Shown here: positions 49 to 7,364 of the stretch, piece after piece
Layout: each line of letters opens with the position of its first letter
How positions within the stretch are numbered: the first letter of the stretch is position 1
Assembly: GCA_022572485.1 (NCBI GenBank)
Contig: JACZVU010000134.1
Coordinates: forward strand, 1-7,364
From: Myxococcales bacterium
GTDB taxonomy: Bacteria; Myxococcota_A; UBA9160; SMWR01
Length of the DNA: 7,364 nucleotides
Reading direction: 5' to 3'
The notes under the pieces: model-generated
Seen by the model: only the letters and a program-made list of their open reading frames with translations
Databases searched by the model: none
What the model was told of the DNA's origin: nothing
Program-made: the position numbers and the translations under genes

Positions 49-125
49 GGCCCGGTAGCTCAGCTGGATAGAGCACCAGCCTCCGAAGCTGGGGGTCGCG
101 CGTTCGAATCGCGCCCGGGTCACCA
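49..125 (+). tRNA. tRNA-Arg, anticodon CCG (reads CGG)
   Basis: A complete 77-nt cloverleaf can be folded by eye. The acceptor stem GGCCCGG (49-55) pairs with CCGGGTC (115-121) with one G-U. The D stem is GCTC/GAGC. The anticodon stem CCAGC/GCTGG encloses loop CTCCGAA (81-87) with CCG at 83-85. The variable loop is GGGTC, the T stem GCGCG/CGCGC encloses TTCGAAT, then discriminator A122 and encoded CCA 123-125. A tyrosine recombinase gene ends six bases downstream on the opposite strand, so the 3' end of this tRNA is the likely integration target. The gene looks intact, as expected when an element rebuilds the tRNA 3' end on insertion. Confidence 0.97.
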
Positions 126-131
126 TTTCTT

Positions 132-1295
132 TCAGGCACTTACCCCACTTGTGACATTATCCCGTGTCTGGTTGGCGCCGTCGTAGCGCCGTCCAGCGCC
201 GGCGCCAGATCCAGGCAAGTATGACAGGTCTCTTTCTTCGTCGGGAAGGGCGTGCGCGTAGACGTTCAGAGTTAGCGCCGCGTCACGATGCCCCAGTTGT
301 TGCGATACCCACTTAACCGATTTTCCGCTCTCTAGGCTCAGCGTTGCGAACGTATGCCGGAGCGAGTGCATCGTCAGGGGTCGAACTCCGTAAGACGCCA
401 GCAAGGTTCTGATCCGTGTCCAAGCGCGGTAGGCGGTCGTCTCTTCAAGCGGCGTACCGTTCCGGCTCGCGAACACCCATCCGCCAGACCGCTTGTAACG
501 GAACGTCCGCAGTCCTGTCAGAGCATCTTCCATTGCGGGTGTAATGGCGACGAAGCGTGGCGCGTCCCTTTTCTTGCGATGCTTGGGCAACACCGTCCGC
601 GAGTTCACACGCGCACGCCTGATTGCGATTCGCCTGCGCTTGAAATCCACATCCGACCACTTCATTCCGAGGGCTTCCCCACGCCGGCAGCCCGTATGAA
701 GCAGAGTCAGGATGAGCGGGTAGTAGCGGGGCTCGTCCTTACGGACCAATCTCAGTAGCTTCTCCGCCTCTTCAAAGGTCCACGAGTCGATAGATCGAAT
801 CTCTTCTGCGCGTGAGGTCTCGGCTCTTTCAAATATCTCGGCGGTGTCGAGAGTGAGTTCGGGGATGTCTGGATGGCTACGTCGCAAGCGCCTCAAGGCC
901 TTGCGAAGTACGTTCACGCAGCCGCGTACGAACGATGGCGAGTATCTCTGTAGCTTGGCCTCGATGAACGCAACAACGTTAGCCTCTTGAATGTCCCTCG
1001 CGTCGAGATGTCCGAACTCGGGGATCAGATGGTTTTTAATCTGGCCTGACTGAAGAACCTGGGTACTGTGTTTCAGGTTGCTCACGTACATGCGCTGATG
1101 GTTTTCCAGTACGATCTTGAGCGGTAGAGGATCTGGCAGTCCAGCCCGCGAGCGCGCGTCTTCGGCCTCTATCTCTTTGGCCAGCGTGTGCGCCTTGTCC
1201 CAGTCTCCGATCTTGCGCTGCTTCCTCTTTCCTTTGCGGTAGACAATAATCCAGGCATTCCCGTCGCCCTTTAGGTCGCGGACTTTGACTCCCAT
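132..1295 (-). CDS. int: Tyrosine recombinase (site-specific integrase)
   Basis: This 387-aa protein catalyses strand exchange between element and chromosomal attachment sites. Residues 1-50 resemble an AP2-like arm-binding domain, 61-165 a SAM-like core-binding domain, and about 172-355 the catalytic domain. Visible catalytic residues are R204 (in TGCRRGE), a Lys-rich turn near 238-242 as candidate for the catalytic Lys, H310 and R313 (HSLRH), H336 (LGH) and nucleophile Y346 (NVYAHA). The length is typical of phage and island integrases. The ATG start is preceded at a short 2-nt spacing by a strong Shine-Dalgarno run, AAGGGGGAG (1298-1306). The gene lies 21 bp after the small HTH gene and is probably co-transcribed with it. 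Its stop is six bases from the tRNA-Arg CCA end, and the two genes converge with no visible terminator. The residues after about 358 are low-complexity and overlap the probable attachment region. Confidence 0.95.
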   Translation of the reverse strand: MGVKVRDLKGDGNAWIIVYRKGKRKQRKIGDWDKAHTLAKEIEAEDARSRAGLPDPLPLKIVLENHQRMYVSNLKHSTQVLQSGQIKNHLIPEFGHLDARDIQEANVVAFIEAKLQRYSPSFVRGCVNVLRKALRRLRRSHPDIPELTLDTAEIFERAETSRAEEIRSIDSWTFEEAEKLLRLVRKDEPRYYPLILTLLHTGCRRGEALGMKWSDVDFKRRRIAIRRARVNSRTVLPKHRKKRDAPRFVAITPAMEDALTGLRTFRYKRSGGWVFASRNGTPLEETTAYRAWTRIRTLLASYGVRPLTMHSLRHTFATLSLESGKSVKWVSQQLGHRDAALTLNVYAHALPDEERDLSYLPGSGAGAGRRYDGANQTRDNVTSGVSA

Positions 1296-1316
1296 AGCTC
1301 CCCCTTCGTGGACATC

Positions 1317-1607
1317 TTATTCCATCTCTCGAAGAATTGATCGAGCCTGTTCGGAGGCTGGGTGCTGCGTCTCTGGCGCAGCTCCGACCAACGCCCACAC
1401 ATCGCACGCCACGATGAATACCAACCCCCGCACTTTGGTTGCTCTGAGAGTGCCGTCAGCGGTGAGCGAATCCACAAAATCCTGAGAGCATCCGAGGGTT
1501 TCGGCCACTTCTGCGCGGGTCAGCGTTACCCGGCGTGCAAAGCAGATGGGAATTGCATCGCAGCAGAACGTCGTTTGGGGGGATGAGGTCATTAGCCGGG
1601 CCGCCAT
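1317..1607 (-). CDS. Small excisionase-like helix-turn-helix protein
   Basis: This 96-aa protein has a MerR/excisionase-type (HTH_17-like) fold at about residues 28-73. The stretch VTLTRAEVAETLGCSQDFVDSL has the usual two helices, and DGTLRATKVRGLVFI looks like the following beta hairpin (wing). Proteins of this size and position, directly upstream of int, usually act as recombination directionality factors that bend DNA at att sites to favour excision; some are AlpA-like regulators instead. The role here is inferred from fold and position. The ATG at 1607 has only a weak GGA upstream. A second ATG at 1592 is possible and would shorten the non-domain N-terminus. The C-terminal 20 residues are polar and probably unstructured. 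Confidence 0.75.
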   Translation of the reverse strand: MAARLMTSSPQTTFCCDAIPICFARRVTLTRAEVAETLGCSQDFVDSLTADGTLRATKVRGLVFIVACDVWALVGAAPETQHPASEQARSILREME

Positions 1608-1781
1608 TCGTCCGGCACAGGTCCGTTGTTATCGTATCCACACACTAAGTTGTGTATATCCATGTAGCCGAACACTCTCCGTCACGCCGCTGACGGCCTT
1701 TCCGGCGACCGAAACTCTTTCTGCGCTTGTTCGCGGGCCACCCATCCTCGCGCTGGATCTGTCTGATTTGTGGCTCCCGCA
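1608..1781 (-). promoter_or_regulatory. Probable control region of the xis-int pair, with an ACACA/TGTGT dyad
   Basis: This gap separates the primase gene (and repeat site A) from the small HTH gene. It holds a short inverted repeat, ACACA (1640-1644) and TGTGT (1651-1655), separated by six bases, within the most AT-rich part of the gap. Reading on the minus strand, this lies roughly 35-50 bases before the HTH start, where an operator or promoter would be expected. No clear -35/-10 pair could be assigned, and a 5-bp dyad can occur by chance, so the regulatory call rests mainly on position. No gene is recognised in the gap. Confidence 0.3.
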
Positions 1782-1841
1782 ACCCGACATCCGACCTAAT
1801 TCCCCTTTTGCAACGGTGGTTTGTCTGTCGGGTGTCGGACA
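1782..1841 (+). repeat. Composite dyad site A (inverted copy of site B at 5814-5873)
   Basis: The site begins with a 15-bp block (1782-1796, ACCCGACATCCGACC), then a 24-bp spacer, then a 21-bp block (1821-1841, starting TTGTCTGTCGGG and ending TGTCGGACA). On the opposite strand, site B has the same two blocks (14/15 and 21/21 identical) with the same 24-bp spacing, while the spacers show no obvious similarity. Inside the site, CCGAC occurs twice with a 7-bp period (1784-1795, one mismatch to the site B version) and faces an inverted pair GTCGGGTGTCGG (1827-1838). It overlaps the last codons and stop of the primase gene. Likely a multi-contact protein-binding site such as an iteron-type origin or operator; the function is inferred. 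Confidence 0.85.
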
Positions 1842-3880
1842 AGACGGTAATGGTTGCTGCGAGATCCAGCTGGTTTACTTCGATCAACGTCGTCCATCGC
1901 TTCGACTACCGCACGAAGCTCCCTGGCGGCTGGAGCAGCTGCGTTGGGCCAACCGCGTTGGAGATCTCGAACGGAGTGCCAGGTCTTCGGTCGCTTCGCG
2001 AGCAGCCTGCGAATATTCTTTTCCAAGCTGGACGTCCGTACAGGCCCCCAATCTGGCTGGCGAGCGAGTAGCAGACGCCGATAACTCTCGGACAGGAAGG
2101 CCCCGACTTCGATGGCCGGGAGAAGATCGTCAGATGTTACGACTGTGCGACCTGCGTCCGTCGCGAACGTGAGAGCCAGTCTCGCCACGTGATCGCGCAC
2201 GCGTTTGACGCAGGCAGCTTCGTCAACCGGGAGATCCCGAAGCCGAGCGTCGTGGCTGGACGAGAATGAAATCCAGATCGGTTCGGCAGCGGTCGAAAGT
2301 TCGACGACCTCGGATTCCATTCCGGTGAGTTGTTCAAGGTGCTCGCGGAGGTCAAGAGCGAGGGCCTCATCCGGGCTCTTCGTCCTGGGCAGACTTCTTC
2401 CGTTCTCGACATAGAAGAACGCCAATCTATTCACGAATCCGCCCGCGATGGCGAGAGTCGCATCGCCGATTGTTCTCCAGAAGGTCTCTGGATGGGTACC
2501 TGCGAGAAGGCACGCGAATGGTTCAGAGATTCGCCGTCGCCCCGCTCCCTCTCGTCCACGCCGGGACAAGTTCCGATCGAGAAACCTCGGAGCCGCCCAA
2601 AGCCGATTGAGCATCGCATCCAAAGTGGATCCGCTGAGGCTTGACATCCGGAGCAAAAAGCCCAATTCGTCGAAATGAAAAAGGGCAGGCCCCCCGTTCG
2701 CATCGTGGAGGGCGTCGAACATTCCCGCATCCGAGCTGGTACCGTCAATCCGAAGTAGCGATTCGGGGAGGAGTTCGGCAGCAGCATCCATGGCGGAGCT
2801 CTTGTGATCTCCGGTTGAGCCGATGAGTGTCGCGTACACGACAGGTACGACCCGGCCGCTCCATGTCCCCCATCGACTGCGGCCGATGCAAGATCCCAAG
2901 ACTGCCCACCAAGCTGCGAACGCGTGAGCCGACGATGCGCCGGTAATCGGTCGAAGAAAGGTCCGGAATTGTTCGAAGGAACCGCGGAATGCAACCTCCG
3001 GGAATTCGAGGGAGGCGTTCCGCTCGCTGGGGGTCTCTTCATATGACGAGCCAACGCTGATGCAATCGTTGTGCCGTCCCGCCCAATCGATTTCCAGCCA
3101 GGCGAATGCGGTGCGAACTGCCTTCTCTGGCATCAAGGTCCCGAGTGTGGGAAGGCCGGTGGCTGGCTCGCCGCTGTTTAGTCTCCGAATTGTTGTGGCA
3201 ACGTTTCCCTCCCGCTGAAGCCACTCTTCATCTTTAGCGGCTCGACACACTGCATTCACAAAGTGAATTGCATCTTGTTCACTCCACCCCGCTCGAATGA
3301 GGCCTCCGACGAGCGCGTTGGTCCAGTTGTGACGATTTCCCGTCGACGGGTAGTAGCGCGTGAGTATCGTTGCGGCCGCTAAACGATGAACCTGCGCAGC
3401 GAGCTGGTCAAAAGGGACGGAGCTAGGTATGCCTTCGCGTTCCTGAATTACGAATTCGCCGGACGGATGGACGGATGGCGGCACCATGGTCAAACAACCA
3501 TTTGCCCGCAGTTCGATCAACATCGTTCCGTTGATCGGATCTGCGAACTTTCGAGTGGTGCAGCCGGGGGCCAGGTAGATGTGGTGGCTCCCAGGTGCGC
3601 CCTCGCGACCGTGCAGCCAGGATGTATCGGGAAGGAAATCGCGCGCCAATTCGATCGCCTGCGCCACGTCCAAGTCAACATCCACCAAGGTTTCGCCAGT
3701 TATCAGACCTACGTTCGCTTCCGGTCCAAAACACTGCGATACATTGGCGTTGGTTAGTTCGAACGATGGCCAATCGCGTATCGAAGGCTTCTTACTCTTC
3801 GGATAGAGAGGGATCGGGCGCAGCCCCTGTTGCAGGTATCGACTGGCTGCCTCCCTAGCGCTTGGTGTCTTGTTCAGCAT
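1796..3880 (-). CDS. Primase-polymerase fused to a DUF3987-type ATPase (replication initiator)
   Basis: This 694-aa protein probably initiates replication of the element: a Prim-Pol domain that makes primers, joined to a helicase-like ATPase. The Prim-Pol domain spans about 8-150: LVDVDLD carries the metal-binding D67 and D69, GSHHIY the conserved His (99/100), and MVPPSVHPSG (132-141) follows. A helical linker follows to about 265. The ATPase part shows a Walker A variant, GSTGDHKS (354-361), with His where Gly is usual, Walker B LFHFDELG (400-407), and GGFVNR with R485 as possible arginine finger. The C-terminus looks like a winged helix. The ATG at 3880 is preferred over one at 3952. It sits before the conserved domain and overlaps the upstream gene's stop by seven bases (ATGCTGA), and no Shine-Dalgarno is seen, so translational coupling is likely. 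The 3' end overlaps repeat site A. Confidence 0.9.
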   Translation of the reverse strand: MLNKTPSAREAASRYLQQGLRPIPLYPKSKKPSIRDWPSFELTNANVSQCFGPEANVGLITGETLVDVDLDVAQAIELARDFLPDTSWLHGREGAPGSHHIYLAPGCTTRKFADPINGTMLIELRANGCLTMVPPSVHPSGEFVIQEREGIPSSVPFDQLAAQVHRLAAATILTRYYPSTGNRHNWTNALVGGLIRAGWSEQDAIHFVNAVCRAAKDEEWLQREGNVATTIRRLNSGEPATGLPTLGTLMPEKAVRTAFAWLEIDWAGRHNDCISVGSSYEETPSERNASLEFPEVAFRGSFEQFRTFLRPITGASSAHAFAAWWAVLGSCIGRSRWGTWSGRVVPVVYATLIGSTGDHKSSAMDAAAELLPESLLRIDGTSSDAGMFDALHDANGGPALFHFDELGFLLRMSSLSGSTLDAMLNRLWAAPRFLDRNLSRRGREGAGRRRISEPFACLLAGTHPETFWRTIGDATLAIAGGFVNRLAFFYVENGRSLPRTKSPDEALALDLREHLEQLTGMESEVVELSTAAEPIWISFSSSHDARLRDLPVDEAACVKRVRDHVARLALTFATDAGRTVVTSDDLLPAIEVGAFLSESYRRLLLARQPDWGPVRTSSLEKNIRRLLAKRPKTWHSVRDLQRGWPNAAAPAARELRAVVEAMDDVDRSKPAGSRSNHYRLVRHPTDKPPLQKGN

Positions 3881-4755
3881 TCGAGCAACCGAAGCATCTG
3901 GTCCGCCACTGGGATCGTGAAATCTCCGACGAATCCGCACTTGGCCCTGCAACTAATCTCGAACCGGAATTCGACAATCGGGATAACACCGCCACTCTGG
4001 ATGGGTTGGGAATCGGTAACAGCGGACACCAGTCGGGTACCCCCCCCTCGTAGAATGAAATCGCAGCTCGGGCAATTGAAATCCAAGTAGTCGGTATGTG
4101 TGCAAGTTCGAAGCGTAGGGCGACACTTGCGATCAACTCGACTGGTATCTTCTTCGGAAACAATCTGGATCGGAGCCGTACGAGGCTCATCCGGTCGCCG
4201 CGCTCGACGGCTTTGTGACTGGGGAAGCGGTTTCCCAGGCCAATATTTCGCGTGCTGGTCGACCGGGATTTTGAAGTGGTCCGCGAGTCCGCAGTACCAG
4301 CAATGGACCTCGAACACACAGATGGACGTGGGGGGAATGTCGTTGTCCGAGGAGATGTAGCCCCACTCGACGAAGTCGTTACTCACGCCCGCTAAATGCG
4401 TGATCAGTCCTGTGTCGCAACCGGGGCAGATGAAGTGAAGGCGGCTTCCGTCGTCTGTCTCGCCTTTCAACGCACCTCCGCGGACCTTGTCGCTTCCATG
4501 GATTAAGCACCAATCTTCGTCGGCGATGACCGGGATCCATGCCATCTGCATGCTCTCGCTCCTGGGAGCGGCGACGCTCGTTTCATTGGCTCTTAACGCC
4601 TCAAGTGCAGGATCGATCGGGATGATACGACGACGCCCGACTCGGAGTGACGGGATCCGTCCCGCGCTGATCAGTCGCCAGACATGGCGGACGCTAAGGC
4701 TGGTTTTAGCGGCGAACTCAGGAACAGAGACAAGTATGGAACCGTGATCGTGCAT
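3874..4755 (-). CDS. Excisionase-type HTH protein with two zinc-ribbon-like repeats
   Basis: The protein is 293 aa. Residues 8-50 form an excisionase/MerR-like HTH (VPEFAAKTSLSVRHVWRLIS, then the wing RIPSLRVGRRRIIPI), predicting DNA binding. The rest holds two related modules. The first begins LHFICPGC and ends CWYC...FKIPVDQ (C110, C113, C152, C155). The second begins LDFNCPSC and ends CRAKC...FTIPVADQ (C228, C231, C269, C273). The spacing between cysteine pairs is about 41 residues in both, which points to an internal duplication of a metal-binding unit. A basic, Pro-rich linker (about 176-215) separates them. The ATG has an excellent Shine-Dalgarno, GGGAGG at 4763-4768, seven bases away. 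The stop overlaps the primase start, so the two are probably made together. I do not recognise the full family. A role as element regulator or primase partner is inferred from position only. Confidence 0.8.
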   Translation of the reverse strand: MHDHGSILVSVPEFAAKTSLSVRHVWRLISAGRIPSLRVGRRRIIPIDPALEALRANETSVAAPRSESMQMAWIPVIADEDWCLIHGSDKVRGGALKGETDDGSRLHFICPGCDTGLITHLAGVSNDFVEWGYISSDNDIPPTSICVFEVHCWYCGLADHFKIPVDQHAKYWPGKPLPQSQSRRARRPDEPRTAPIQIVSEEDTSRVDRKCRPTLRTCTHTDYLDFNCPSCDFILRGGGTRLVSAVTDSQPIQSGGVIPIVEFRFEISCRAKCGFVGDFTIPVADQMLRLLEC

Positions 4756-4797
4756 GCGTGTACCTCCCTATACTGAAGAGGCTGACAGCGCATGCAC
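4750..4797 (-). promoter_or_regulatory. Inverted repeat enclosing the start codon and Shine-Dalgarno of the HTH-zinc ribbon gene
   Basis: GTGCATGCG (4750-4758) and CGCATGCAC (4789-4797) are perfect 9-bp inverted arms separated by 30 bases. In the minus-strand mRNA the 3' arm contains the ATG, and the Shine-Dalgarno GGGAGG is in the loop. A CCUC a few bases into the loop could pair with its GAGG. This could hide the start from ribosomes, or the arms could be a DNA operator, since each contains the palindrome GCATGC. A 9-bp dyad somewhere in a window of this size is not very improbable by chance; its exact position at the start codon is the reason to list it. Confidence 0.35.
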
Positions 4798-4847
4798 AGG
4801 CACGCTTCCCCGCGTTTTCGCGAAAAGTTGGGGAGATTTCGGTGTGG

Positions 4848-5747
4848 CTACGAATGCTCGTGTTCGCGGGGAGTCAATCTTAGTTCTGGATGCTTCTTCA
4901 TCCACGCTGCAATGCTGGTTCGGAACAGGATCCGATCTCGAAGGTCAGCTAGTAGGGTGGAAACCTGCTTTTCGCCAATGGGTGGCTCTTGGCGGCGGCC
5001 CCAGACGGTTCTTGCCGCCAGGTCTGGCGTCAGGTCTCTGATGTCCACCGGATCTTCGAGGAAACTCTCCAGCTCCGGAAATCTTTCCTTGAGCTTCGTG
5101 CAAAGCTCATCCCGCTTCTGCTCTCTCACGCGTTTCGATGGCAGGATTGCTTTCAATTCGAGCTTGAGATTTTCGATCTCGCGCACGACCTCGAATTCCC
5201 GCAATGGATGGATACGGTCTTTCGCCTGCTTCACTGTGAGAGGGACTGTGACAGGCTCGTCCTCGCTAAGGCAGTAGGTATCGCGAAGAGAGCATGCATC
5301 GCTGAGTGCAAAGGGGTGCCGGTGCAGGACCCGAGCATGCTGTTCACCCCGTGTTTTGCCGCCGCGTGCGGCATCCAAGAGATTGTCGATGATGACGTCC
5401 GCGAGCTCCGCTATCGCCTCACGTTTGCCCTTTGCGTCTCCTGGCCTCTTGCACTCGTTTCGGAGCATTCCTTGGCACATCGGGACAACCAGCCCGAACA
5501 CCTTCTCCTCGGCAGGTAGGGGAGGCCCCACGTCGGAGAGGACTTCATCGAGTCCGATTGACGGATTCCGAACGCCGGGAAGCGAATAGAAGGCGAGGCG
5601 GGCTTCGATCTCTTCGTTGGTTAGGCCTTCGAAGATGAATCCAATGGCCTCCCACAGCTTCCGGTGCGGATCATGCCGCACGTCGCGTTGTTCTTCGGGA
5701 TCATCAGATTTGGTCCCCGAGGGGCCTATGTAGATTCCACCAGGCAT
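4848..5747 (-). CDS. Hypothetical protein of the element, 299 aa
   Basis: I do not recognise this family. From the ATG at 5747 the product is 299 aa, apparently soluble, charged and mostly helical, with no signal peptide or membrane segment. Residues 30-60 (KLWEAIGFIFEGLTNEEIEARLAFYSLPG) could be a helix-turn-helix-like pair. Residues about 172-232 are rich in Lys, Glu and Leu and look like a coiled coil. The last 50 residues are basic. The frame stays open upstream to a TTG at 5834 inside repeat site B, but the ATG start is preferred because the extra 29 residues look like non-coding sequence over the repeat. Neither start has a clear Shine-Dalgarno. It is the first gene after site B and lies 92 bp before the HTH-zinc ribbon gene, so it may belong to the replication operon. 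Confidence 0.75.
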   Translation of the reverse strand: MPGGIYIGPSGTKSDDPEEQRDVRHDPHRKLWEAIGFIFEGLTNEEIEARLAFYSLPGVRNPSIGLDEVLSDVGPPLPAEEKVFGLVVPMCQGMLRNECKRPGDAKGKREAIAELADVIIDNLLDAARGGKTRGEQHARVLHRHPFALSDACSLRDTYCLSEDEPVTVPLTVKQAKDRIHPLREFEVVREIENLKLELKAILPSKRVREQKRDELCTKLKERFPELESFLEDPVDIRDLTPDLAARTVWGRRQEPPIGEKQVSTLLADLRDRILFRTSIAAWMKKHPELRLTPREHEHS

Positions 5748-5887
5748 CGTCGTGCCAGTGTGTGCCAGCGTAGGACCCAACTGCAACCCAGGGCGGATTG
5801 ACTTACCACACCGTGTCCGACACCCGACAGACAACGGGTCGGATCTACTGAACTTTTTGGTCGGGTGTCGGGTGAAACAAATTACAG
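5748..5887 (-). promoter_or_regulatory. Intergenic control region upstream of the replication block, containing site B
   Basis: This 140-bp gap precedes the 299-aa gene and contains nearly all of its possible promoter space. Its main content is composite site B (5814-5873), whose outer end lies 14 bp from the stop of the upstream zinc-ribbon gene. The 24-bp spacer of site B and the bases outside it include the AT-rich patches CTTTTT and GAAACAAATTACA, where an open complex could form. No confident -35/-10 pair was found. Its position suggests that whatever binds site B could control the operon for the 299-aa protein, HTH-zinc ribbon protein and primase. Confidence 0.4.
5814..5873 (-). repeat. 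Composite dyad site B (inverted copy of site A at 1782-1841)
   Basis: Read on the minus strand, the site begins ACCCGACACCCGACC (5873-5859), then has a 24-bp spacer, then a 21-bp block (5834-5814) identical at every base to 1821-1841. On the plus strand it shows CCGACACCCGAC (5817-5828) and its perfect inverse GTCGGGTGTCGG (5860-5871), 31 bases apart, the same spacing as in site A. Each 12-mer is itself a pair of CCGAC units with 7-bp period. The spacer differs from site A, so the flanking blocks and the spacing are what has been kept. It lies just upstream of the 299-aa gene. Confidence 0.88.
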
Positions 5888-6481
5888 TTAGACAGCACCA
5901 TCGAGAAGAACTCTTCGAAGCCTCCGGGGCGTGAGTCGAAGGCGGCCCCTACGCTGAGCTTTTTCAATCAACCAGGCGGTAACAATCGCGGATCTCAAGC
6001 CGCGGAGGTGAGCGCGCCGCTCCAAGAACGCCCGGGGATCAAGGCGAGCCAGATTCACCCGGTGATCGCTTTTTTGCGCGGAGGCATAACCGAGGCCGCA
6101 GCAGCGTCTACAGCCAATTCGGCGATTCTCTGGAAGCAGAAAAAGTGATCTTGCCCGACCACCGCAGCCAGCTGGGCACCGAGCGTGCGTCCGCATGGAA
6201 AAGCCGACCGCTACCGGCTCCAGGGCCAAGTGGGTCATCCGCCCCCACCCCTCGAATTCGAGGGTGAGGATGCGGCTGCCGTTCTCTCCTTTCGCCCCCA
6301 ACTCGAACGCAGCCTGGGCTATGCAACTCCCGGTGGAATCTGTCCAGCGCAGGTTTCCGGAAGCCGTCGAGTGCTTCAAAACGGCCCGCCACTCGGGGCT
6401 CCCGAAATCGAGGCGGTTAGTTTCCTCGACTAACCGCCTCGGCTGATGTCCACGCCATCGAGTGCTCTTGCTACCGCCCAT
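5888..6481 (-). CDS. Basic zinc-ribbon protein of the 'MGGxGSxRW' hypothetical family
   Basis: The 197-aa product opens with MGGSKSTRW and has LVEETNRLDF at 17-26, resembling a group of uncharacterised proteins common in bacterial genomes and mobile elements that start MGGxGSGRW and carry a VEEC/LDI-type motif (recalled family resemblance, not a search). A zinc ribbon is clear: C102-PAG-C106 and C124-RR-C127, separated by LFLLPENRRIGC, the usual pattern of 'LYLP...FxCRxCxxLxY'. Residues 140-190 are very Arg-rich, suggesting nucleic-acid binding. The ATG has a Shine-Dalgarno GGAG (6489-6492) seven bases away. It is the first gene of the element from the right, and 140 bp separate it from the 299-aa gene, so it may be its own unit. 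The 5' coding region contains a perfect 12-bp inverted repeat. Function unknown. Confidence 0.8.
   Translation of the reverse strand: MGGSKSTRWRGHQPRRLVEETNRLDFGSPEWRAVLKHSTASGNLRWTDSTGSCIAQAAFELGAKGENGSRILTLEFEGWGRMTHLALEPVAVGFSMRTHARCPAGCGGRARSLFLLPENRRIGCRRCCGLGYASAQKSDHRVNLARLDPRAFLERRAHLRGLRSAIVTAWLIEKAQRRGRLRLTPRRLRRVLLDGAV
6409..6441 (-). repeat. Perfect 12-bp inverted repeat inside the zinc-ribbon gene
   Basis: CGAGGCGGTTAG (6409-6420) and CTAACCGCCTCG (6430-6441) are exact inverse complements around a nine-base loop. It encodes residues 14-24 or so (RRLVEETNRLD) of the zinc-ribbon protein, starting about 40 bases after its ATG. In mRNA this would be a very stable, GC-rich stem-loop. 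There is no T-tract after it in either direction, so an intrinsic terminator is unlikely. A stem this long with a short loop is not expected by chance in a window of this size. Confidence 0.7.
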
Positions 6482-6811
6482 CAGTTATCTCCGTCCAAGA
6501 TTTTCAGAAATCTACACTTAACTAGTCGTAATGCGAGGTTGGAGGCAGTTGATTGAGACGCCCCCCTCGAATTCCCCCCGCGGGGATCATTGTAGATCCA
6601 GGGTGGTAGGTCCACGAATCTGCCGAACCCAACAGTTTTGTGGAGGCCAGCGCAGCGCCTTCCATCAGAACATCAACGTCGTGAAAGCAGCAGCTTACGG
6701 TCTGCAAATCGAACAACGGACGCACCACTATGTGGGTCGCAAACAGGCGGCTGGCCCTCTCATTCCGTCGCGTGAGGGAACCGCACACAAGTGAACCCGG
6801 GGGCACCGTGG
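6482..6811. other. Non-coding stretch, probable right junction of the element
   Basis: No gene is supported in these 330 bases; open frames on both strands give low-complexity translations without recognisable motifs. The first 60 bases (6482-6540) are AT-rich and must hold the promoter of the zinc-ribbon gene. They include a small dyad AGATTT-TCAG-AAATCT (6498-6513) just upstream of its Shine-Dalgarno. AAGATTTT with CGTCC before it (6492-6504) resembles the tRNA spacer at 32-48. Bases 6559-6585 contain C-rich runs around CGAATT. The rest, up to the stop of the lipoprotein gene, shows no terminator, tRNA or repeat that I can recognise. Confidence 0.5.
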
Positions 6812-7081
6812 CTAATGCTGCGGAGTGCATTGGAAGCACGGCGGATTTGCGTCAGGAGCGCATTGCGACCGCTCACAGACGCCGAGTGGACCTTCAGGGA
6901 GCTGGCATTGCGCACCGGACTCTGTGCAGGTGACGGAGGGGCCGGTGGAGAGGGAGCCCGGGTCGCAGGCCAGGAGACCGACAGCCGCAATCGCCGCGAG
7001 TGTGTTGAAGAACGGGAGTAATCGCGGACTGCCAGGCGGGCCAGATGTCGAGAGGAGATTCATTTCAGATCTTCGATTCAC
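6812..7081 (-). CDS. Small cysteine-rich lipoprotein
   Basis: The product is up to 89 aa. A hydrophobic segment LLPFFNTLAAIAAVGLLAC (about 21-39) ends in a good lipobox (GLLAC), so C39 should be lipid-modified by Lgt and cleaved by LspA. Asp follows at +2, which in enterobacteria favours retention in the inner membrane; whether that holds here is unknown. The mature part has about 50 residues with six further cysteines (52, 59, 69, 74, 82, 85), suggesting disulfides or a metal-bound fold in the periplasm. The GTG start overlaps the stop of the PEGA-domain gene by four bases (GTGA). A second start, ATG at 7063 with weak GAAG upstream, would give 83 aa. The overlap and the Arg pair near the N-terminus favour GTG. 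No family is recognised. Confidence 0.7.
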   Translation of the reverse strand: MNRRSEMNLLSTSGPPGSPRLLPFFNTLAAIAAVGLLACDPGSLSTGPSVTCTESGAQCQLPEGPLGVCERSQCAPDANPPCFQCTPQH

Positions 7082-7364
7082 GAACTGGGCGACGAGGGAT
7101 CTAGGCTTGGCAGAGCTGGCTCAAGCTCTACGGAGACCGAGTCCGGCTCAAGGTCGTATCCCGAGCCAGTGCTCAGGTCAACGATCACGCCGATGAGCCA
7201 CCCGAGTGGGTGGATCCAGACGGCGTTTCGAAAAAGGCCAGAGGAGGCTTTACGTTCTATGATGATCGTCTGTGGTCGGTAGCCTTCCTTCTCGAAACGT
7301 AGCGACTGGTTGTACCGGCGTGCCAAGAGAACCTGCTCGGGTGTTTCGAAGTGTCGCCCTCCCG
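7078..7364 (-). CDS. PEGA-domain protein, C-terminal part (5' end outside window)
   Basis: About 95 codons are visible, open to the window edge. GGRHFETPEQVLLARRYNQS is followed by LRFEKEGYRP and QTIIIERK, the typical end of a PEGA beta-sandwich (TPA-V-L-R...FEKEGY). Then comes GLFRNAVWIHPLGWLIGVIVDLSTGSGYDLEPDSVSVEL, which matches the hydrophobic Gly-rich 'GNLLxGGxIGxxVDxxTGAMYxLxPDxVxVxL' tail seen in many PEGA lipoproteins of Gram-negative bacteria. Such proteins are usually exported and membrane- or envelope-associated; the signal sequence would be off the window. A TTG at 7326 could be mistaken for a start, but the PEGA motif continues upstream of it. The stop overlaps the start of the small lipoprotein gene. 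Probably host rather than element. Confidence 0.8.
   Translation of the reverse strand, partial: GGRHFETPEQVLLARRYNQSLRFEKEGYRPQTIIIERKASSGLFRNAVWIHPLGWLIGVIVDLSTGSGYDLEPDSVSVELEPALPSLDPSSPSS

Follow-up and report, generated by a model that had tools for sequence, protein, structure and literature searches.

Two copies of a composite site of 60 base pairs (bp), in opposite orientation and separated by 3972 bp, bracket the replication genes in a 7,364-nucleotide stretch of DNA from a Myxococcales bacterium (GenBank assembly GCA_022572485.1, contig JACZVU010000134.1; hereafter, the window), which looks like part of a small mobile element integrated at a tRNA gene. On balance, we read the two sites as cis sites of the element's own replicon, that is, as iterons bound by its replicase and forming a pair like the ori and crr of phage P4. 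The features on which this reading turns are:

1782..1841, + strand: site 1 (left block 1782-1796, spacer 1797-1820, right block 1821-1841), overlapping the last codons and the stop of the replicase gene
5814..5873, - strand: site 2, the same composite site in opposite orientation (right block 5814-5834, left block 5859-5873)
1796..3880, - strand: replicase, 694 amino acids (aa) from the ATG at 3880, or 718 aa from an upstream TTG, identified with Pfam, AlphaFold and Foldseek/VIA

The pair of sites is real and non-random. In the reading direction of site 1, each has the form ACCCGACAYCCGACC-N24-TTGTCTGTCGGGTGTCGGACA. A gapless alignment of site 1 with the reverse complement of site 2 matches at 14/15 positions of the 15-bp block and 21/21 of the 21-bp block (35/36 in total), the 24-bp spacers agree at 7/24, and the 60 bp flanking either site have no evident similarity; this re-alignment confirms the first-pass annotation, which had described two opposed 60-bp sites with conserved blocks, the same 24-bp spacing and unmatched spacers. 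The left block is made of two CCGAC pentamers at a 7-bp step and the right block of two GTCGG pentamers at the same step. The single block difference (C/T) falls in the two bases between the CCGAC pentamers, and a fifth pentamer, GTCGG, lies in the spacer of site 2 (5838-5842). The longest inverted exact match in the window is the 21-bp pair 1821-1841/5814-5834, compared with a maximum of 16 in 200 dinucleotide shuffles. Exact facing arms, CCGAC-N2-CCGAC against GTCGG-N2-GTCGG with a gap of 10-80 bp allowed, occur in the window only at these two places, each time across 31 bp as had been claimed, and facing double pentamers appeared in 0/500 shuffles. A cruder test, the best inverted 60-mer identity (42/60), did not discriminate, 42 being reached also in 1/30 shuffles. 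The motif GTCGGGTGTCGG occurs in none of the papers in the literature searched.

Site 1 does overlap the primase stop codon, as annotated: its 21-bp block lies within the replicase reading frame, where it encodes VRHPTDK, and the stop codon (1796-1798) starts at the last base of the left block. The companion claim, that the other copy is upstream of the operon, is right only in part, since site 2 lies in the gap between the genes for a 197-aa protein (5888-6481) and a 299-aa protein (4848-5747), both running in the same direction, and a scan of 1200-6700 for simple sigma-70 consensus patterns detected nothing promoter-like in that gap. Upstream of the 299-aa gene its frame remains open (5748-5834) as far as a TTG at 5834, inside site 2; given this open frame and a similar predicted N-terminal extension in the relative P0124, translation of the 299-aa protein may start within site 2.

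The likely binder of the sites is predicted to be the replicase itself, acting through a winged-helix-like domain at its C-terminus. Pfam assigns the protein a primase-polymerase (Prim-Pol) domain, PF09250, which resembles that of ORF904, and DUF3987, PF13148, and its AlphaFold model has a mean pLDDT of 86. DUF3987 carries the Pfam label "unknown function" and is counted among (putative) helicase domains fused to primases in PMC5862659; here it is modelled as an MCM-like AAA+ domain (Foldseek/VIA). The winged-helix-like domain would occupy residues 637-704 of the 718-aa form, a call made from the order of helices and strands and from a few MCM rows that reach residue 701-707 at a root-mean-square deviation of 7.7-14.3, the C-terminal domain being barely tested by the VIA list. 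Family matching and structure prediction lend partial support to the layout Prim-Pol, MCM-like AAA+, winged-helix-like. P4 alpha was absent among the structural matches listed (Foldseek, VIA), which excludes nothing. The 299-aa protein was modelled at a mean pLDDT of 50, and that model was not used. Among the roles first suggested for the sites, a bipartite origin read by the primase-polymerase is the one that fares best; the winged-helix-like end and the P4 layout strengthen it, with binding predicted from the model and by analogy.

In the mechanism that we propose, the replicase C-terminal domain would recognise the CCGAC pentamers at both sites. The two facing arms of a site would suit a pair of oligomers that assemble one on each arm and face one another; these would probably be hexamers of the MCM-like motor. 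The DNA between or beside them would melt and the Prim-Pol domain would prime synthesis. The two sites, 4 kb apart, would work as a pair, with replication starting at one and being activated or limited by the other through pairing mediated by the replicase. We infer the binding, the arrangement of the oligomers and the requirement for the sites in cis. We slightly prefer site 2 as the place where replication starts, because it is intergenic and has an AT-rich edge; the precedent of the PICI origins would favour site 1. Two AT-rich stretches bear on this point:

5876..5915, no strand: AT-rich stretch, 62.5% AT (top 0.4% of 40-mers), 2 bp outside site 2
1625..1664, no strand: AT-rich stretch, 62.5% AT (top 0.4% of 40-mers), 117 bp from site 1

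The first is a candidate melting region, and either could serve as one. The second contains two DnaA-box-like 9-mers in dyad, GTATCCACA (1634-1642, + strand) and ATATACACA (1651-1659, - strand), 8 bp apart. This dyad (1634-1659) lies just upstream of an excisionase-like gene, and the stretch is possibly an accessory part of the origin or an operator of that gene. One-mismatch DnaA boxes are as frequent as chance would give (2 found, 1.9 expected), and only their dyad arrangement stands out.

Conservation was sought at the level of proteins and of DNA. Searches with a 293-aa protein encoded next to the replicase returned 4 matches (best 99% identical), and those with the 299-aa protein 11, including the window's own and hence 10 relatives. 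For P0124 and P0133, from among the relatives of these two proteins, the longest contig listed is 2155 bases in both cases; from this equality we take the two genes to be probable neighbours there as well. The protein ends of two relatives offer weak hints that the sites are conserved. P0001, a replicase relative, ends LVRHPTDK, as encoded by the site 1 block in the window, and the N-terminal extension of P0124 has SVGC like that encoded by the site 2 block, with next residues that would differ from the block. The VRHPTDK end was found in 0/11 other aligned replicase homologues, and the remaining relatives of the 299-aa protein have predicted later starts or are fragments. In addition, P0007 contains a stretch 62% identical over 41% of the query and carries a Prim-Pol with PF13481 in place of DUF3987, which suggests exchange of the motor domain among these elements.

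Peptide patterns for contig scans were taken from alignments of the 299-aa protein (A1), the replicase (A3; the window and 7 of 120 homologues listed) and the 293-aa protein (A4). Genome contigs gave 11 pattern stretches with A1 and 176 with A3, and viral contigs 1, 15 and 85 with A1, A3 and A4; none proved to be a relative (by tblastn in the genome contigs), each scan resting on two to six peptide patterns, so that a miss is not proof of absence. The integrase gave 4 loci in the viral contigs, at 25-29% identity, and tblastn with the replicase matched 2 plasmid and 8 phage records, none covering 80% of the query.

The viral contigs were also searched for the sites themselves. The exact motif was found 0 times with N31 and 0 times with N15-45, and the 16-mer GTCTGTCGGRTGTCGG occurred in 8 stretches, with no facing arm anywhere in those eight loci. 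Same-orientation GTCGGRTGTCGG pairs, exactly 809 bp apart, were seen in L004 (584, 1393) and L008 (11773, 12582), which are probably related viruses with an unrelated repeated motif. A relaxed pentamer pattern with N18-48 matched 10 stretches, of which four (L011, L013, L016, L017) represent one homologous gene, leaving 7 distinct sites. One of these, in L010 (IMGVR_UViG_3300003320_000823, 1526-1570), is a facing pentamer site, CCGACCCCCGAC-N21-GTCGGGGGTCGG, that precedes a Prim-Pol frame by 22 bp from a TTG start, or by 73 bp from the ATG of a 484-aa reading. The DUF3987 similarity of this gene is weak (E 0.009, below cut-off), and the 40-kb record holds no second facing pair, exact or one-mismatch. 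Prim-Pol was present in 1/6 records searched among the relaxed-pattern matches (the four records sharing a gene left out). The proximity of the L010 site to a Prim-Pol gene is suggestive, but it was picked after the fact.

Several observations weigh against reading the sites as replicase-bound iterons. The 31-bp gaps are 55% AT, within the top 6.5% of 31-mers in a window of 41.5% AT, and of the nine 30-bp bins that hold the 60 most AT-rich 40-mers, 3 are near a site and 6 away. Site 1 has 4 pentamers and site 2 has 5, compared with 5-6 iterons per P4 array. Two further DNA-binding candidates, both helix-turn-helix (HTH) proteins, are encoded nearby, and the motif may be a host site. The P0001 match counts for little as conservation, seven shared residues being expected in about 1 case in 4 at 81% identity, and the genome and viral contig scans yielded no DNA of relatives, hence no comparison of the sites across them.

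There are also other explanations. The strongest, though we think it unlikely, is that the sites are an operator pair, bound by the 293-aa HTH protein, the excisionase-like protein or the replicase, with looping that silences the replication operon and no origin at all. Site 2 precedes the 299-aa gene, HTH proteins are at hand, and dyad sites 4 kb apart could loop. A precedent also exists in RctB, an initiator that represses its own promoter and handcuffs its sites (PMC6090056). Yet the promoter scan was blank at site 2, and a position at the 3' end of the replicase gene, as for site 1, would be odd for an operator and is usual for such origins. The operator reading is, at the same time, compatible with the favoured one.

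More doubtful is that a single site serves as the origin, the second controlling copy number or incompatibility by handcuffing or titration of the initiator. The iteron plasmids P1 and F have iterons on both sides of rep, and here too the initiator gene is bracketed by two sites. However, both sites are equally complete and identically spaced, and inhibitory sites usually differ in iteron number or spacing. Handcuffing and titration by secondary sites are known from the Vibrio ori2 system (PMC6090056).

A bolder version of the replication reading can be imagined, in which the 4.1-kb segment is a self-contained replicating cassette, a movable two-ended replicon inside the larger integrative element, with equal, inverted initiator sites at its two ends, facing double-hexamer-like motors of a single enzyme (Prim-Pol, MCM-like, winged-helix) on each dyad and the ends paired. 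We hold this to be improbable; if true, a mobile element of bacteria would contain a loading site in the MCM style.

Very improbable, in our view, and weaker than the favoured reading, is that the sites act as nucleic-acid hairpins, whether a pRN1-like stem-loop origin, a terminator or an attenuator, and not as iterons read by a protein. A stem of ~12 bp with a 31-nt loop is possible at each site, and pRN1, which has a Prim-Pol replicase, needs a stem-loop downstream of the gene (PMC4234260). The folding energies of the four site strands, however, are only 1.0 to 3.0 standard deviations below shuffles (z -1.0 to -3.0). Terminator-like patterns in 1200-6700 number 9, compared with 5.0 expected, and none is at either site. 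The pRN1 relatives keep the shape of the stem-loop and not its sequence (PMC4234260), whereas here the block sequence is kept, and the sole block change weakens the stem and leaves the pentamers intact. Equally remote is the earlier suggestion of a nested 4.1-kb mobile unit with the sites as its terminal inverted repeats, which agrees with their exact inverted orientation bounding 1782-5873 and is otherwise without support: none of the three proteins inside matches a transposase, the flanks (GGCTCCCGCA and GAAACAAATT) show no target-site duplication, and one end falls within the replicase reading frame.

The remaining features of the window are those of the mobile element:

49..125, + strand: tRNA-Arg(CCG), presumed integration target
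132..1295, - strand: tyrosine integrase, 387 aa (PF00589, E 3e-27), with its stop 6 bp from tRNA-Arg
1317..1607, - strand: excisionase-family HTH protein, 96 aa (TIGR01764, 29.1 bits against a cut-off of 28.8)
3874..4755, - strand: 293-aa HTH_17/excisionase-like HTH protein with conserved cysteine pairs, both matches below curated cut-offs
4848..5747, - strand: 299-aa protein, no family match
5888..6481, - strand: 197-aa cysteine-rich protein, no family match, its gene end bordering site 2

The genes thus run on one strand from tRNA-Arg in the order integrase, excisionase-family, replicase, 293-aa, 299-aa and 197-aa protein, the 293-aa gene overlapping the beginning of the replicase gene. Within the window, family matches are limited to the integrase, the excisionase-like protein and the replicase, bar one weak PHROG match (terminase small subunit, E 0.022) to the HTH part of the 293-aa protein. 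A PADLOC search with four proteins gave one weak HTH match, to the same protein (E 2e-4). Rfam (E up to 0.5) returned the tRNA and YrlA, the latter far below threshold, and positions 1-41 resemble the end of a further tRNA (our own reading; the tool made no tRNA prediction there). For a second attachment site, a repeat of the tRNA was sought in 6381-7364; the best score was 9, shuffles reach 12, and the other end of the element was not found. An open frame at 7078-7326 weakly matches the LEPBI_I2678 family (E 3e-6; 26.9 bits, where the cut-off is 240) and may be host flank past the right end of the element.

The reading of the sites as replicase-bound iterons, if true, would assign DUF3987 proteins a testable role as MCM-like motors of origins, the substrate being a defined stretch of 60 bp, and would suggest paired iteron sites around initiator genes as a convergent solution for small integrated elements. 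Facing pentamer pairs at a replicase stop and before its operon offer a signature by which others could be searched for.

The first-pass annotation knew of no described element with this arrangement. That does not stand, since P4 ori/crr is one, and the origins of PICI/SaPI and SCCmec elements lie 3' of rep. PICI origins sit immediately 3' of the initiation gene as two iteron sets around an AT-rich stretch (PMC6092414), and in SCCmec the 5-nt iterons downstream of the gene for Cch2 are bound by that protein's C-terminal domain (PMC7581432). Both resemble site 1 in having short iterons directly 3' of rep. Site 1, with its two facing sets, lies in the corresponding place; it runs over the stop, however, and has a gap of just 55% AT. 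The element differs further in its second, equal site upstream, in its replicase and in the family matches of the window, a fragment, which are confined to integrase, excisionase-like protein and replicase apart from the weak terminase match. The pRN1 family (ORF904) shares with it a Prim-Pol, a C-terminal winged helix and a site downstream of the replicase gene, the last an essential stem-loop (PMC4234260); it differs in that this stem-loop is 100 nt long, the helicase is SF3 and there are no iterons. PICMI satellites are small and encode an integrase, a primase with DUF3987 or DUF5906 and the regulator AlpA, whose models include PF12728 HTH_17 (PMC10803314); the element is likewise small, with an integrase, an HTH_17-like candidate regulator and a DUF3987 primase. 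PICMIs, however, insert downstream of fis, whereas the element lies at tRNA-Arg with int 6 bp away, which places it outside the PICMI definition; they are also satellites, and no helper phage is known for the element. The Vibrio cholerae satellite PLE has iterons with inverted sub-repeats bound by its own initiator (PMC7145576), which is of RepA_N type; that source, in its available portion, mentions no second bracketing site.

P4 is the closest parallel. In its record (NC_001609.1), crr (4291-4590) lies 45 bp from the stop of alpha (4636-6969, minus strand), and the type-1 repeats of ori (9310-9413) lie upstream of the same leftward genes. P4 and the element thus both have two separated sites with a common short iteron, one near the replicase stop and the other upstream of the same genes, at a distance of 4.7 kb in P4 and 4.0 kb in the element. 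Facing iterons are also common to both: the 8-mers of the 120-bp crr repeat run two forward, 35 bp, two reverse and one forward, and in ori the same 35-bp distance separates one forward copy from the two reverse ones that face it, compared with 31 bp here. In P4 a single primase-helicase binds origin repeats by a winged helix (PMC4234260), as is predicted for the element. Both crr and the P4 origin are named in PMC9942202 (in a cosmid, not active), and PMC8628076 cites the P4 alpha paper. The differences are as plain. The iteron is TGTTCACC in P4 and CCGAC in the element; the P4 gaps are 69% and 83% AT, those of the element 55%; crr consists of two 120-bp direct repeats (98/120 identical) and ori has extra type-2 repeats, whereas in the element each site is one 60-bp unit, equal to its partner and inverted relative to it. 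The primase of alpha is of TOPRIM type (PMC4234260), and the replicase has a Prim-Pol with an MCM-like domain. Because its initiator is not of the alpha type, the element falls outside the P4 family, and we infer by analogy that it works like P4 ori/crr; a P4-style two-site origin would then have arisen with a replicase of a different family. The geometry of the sites is thus known, and the element departs from P4 in its enzyme and in having two exactly equal sites.
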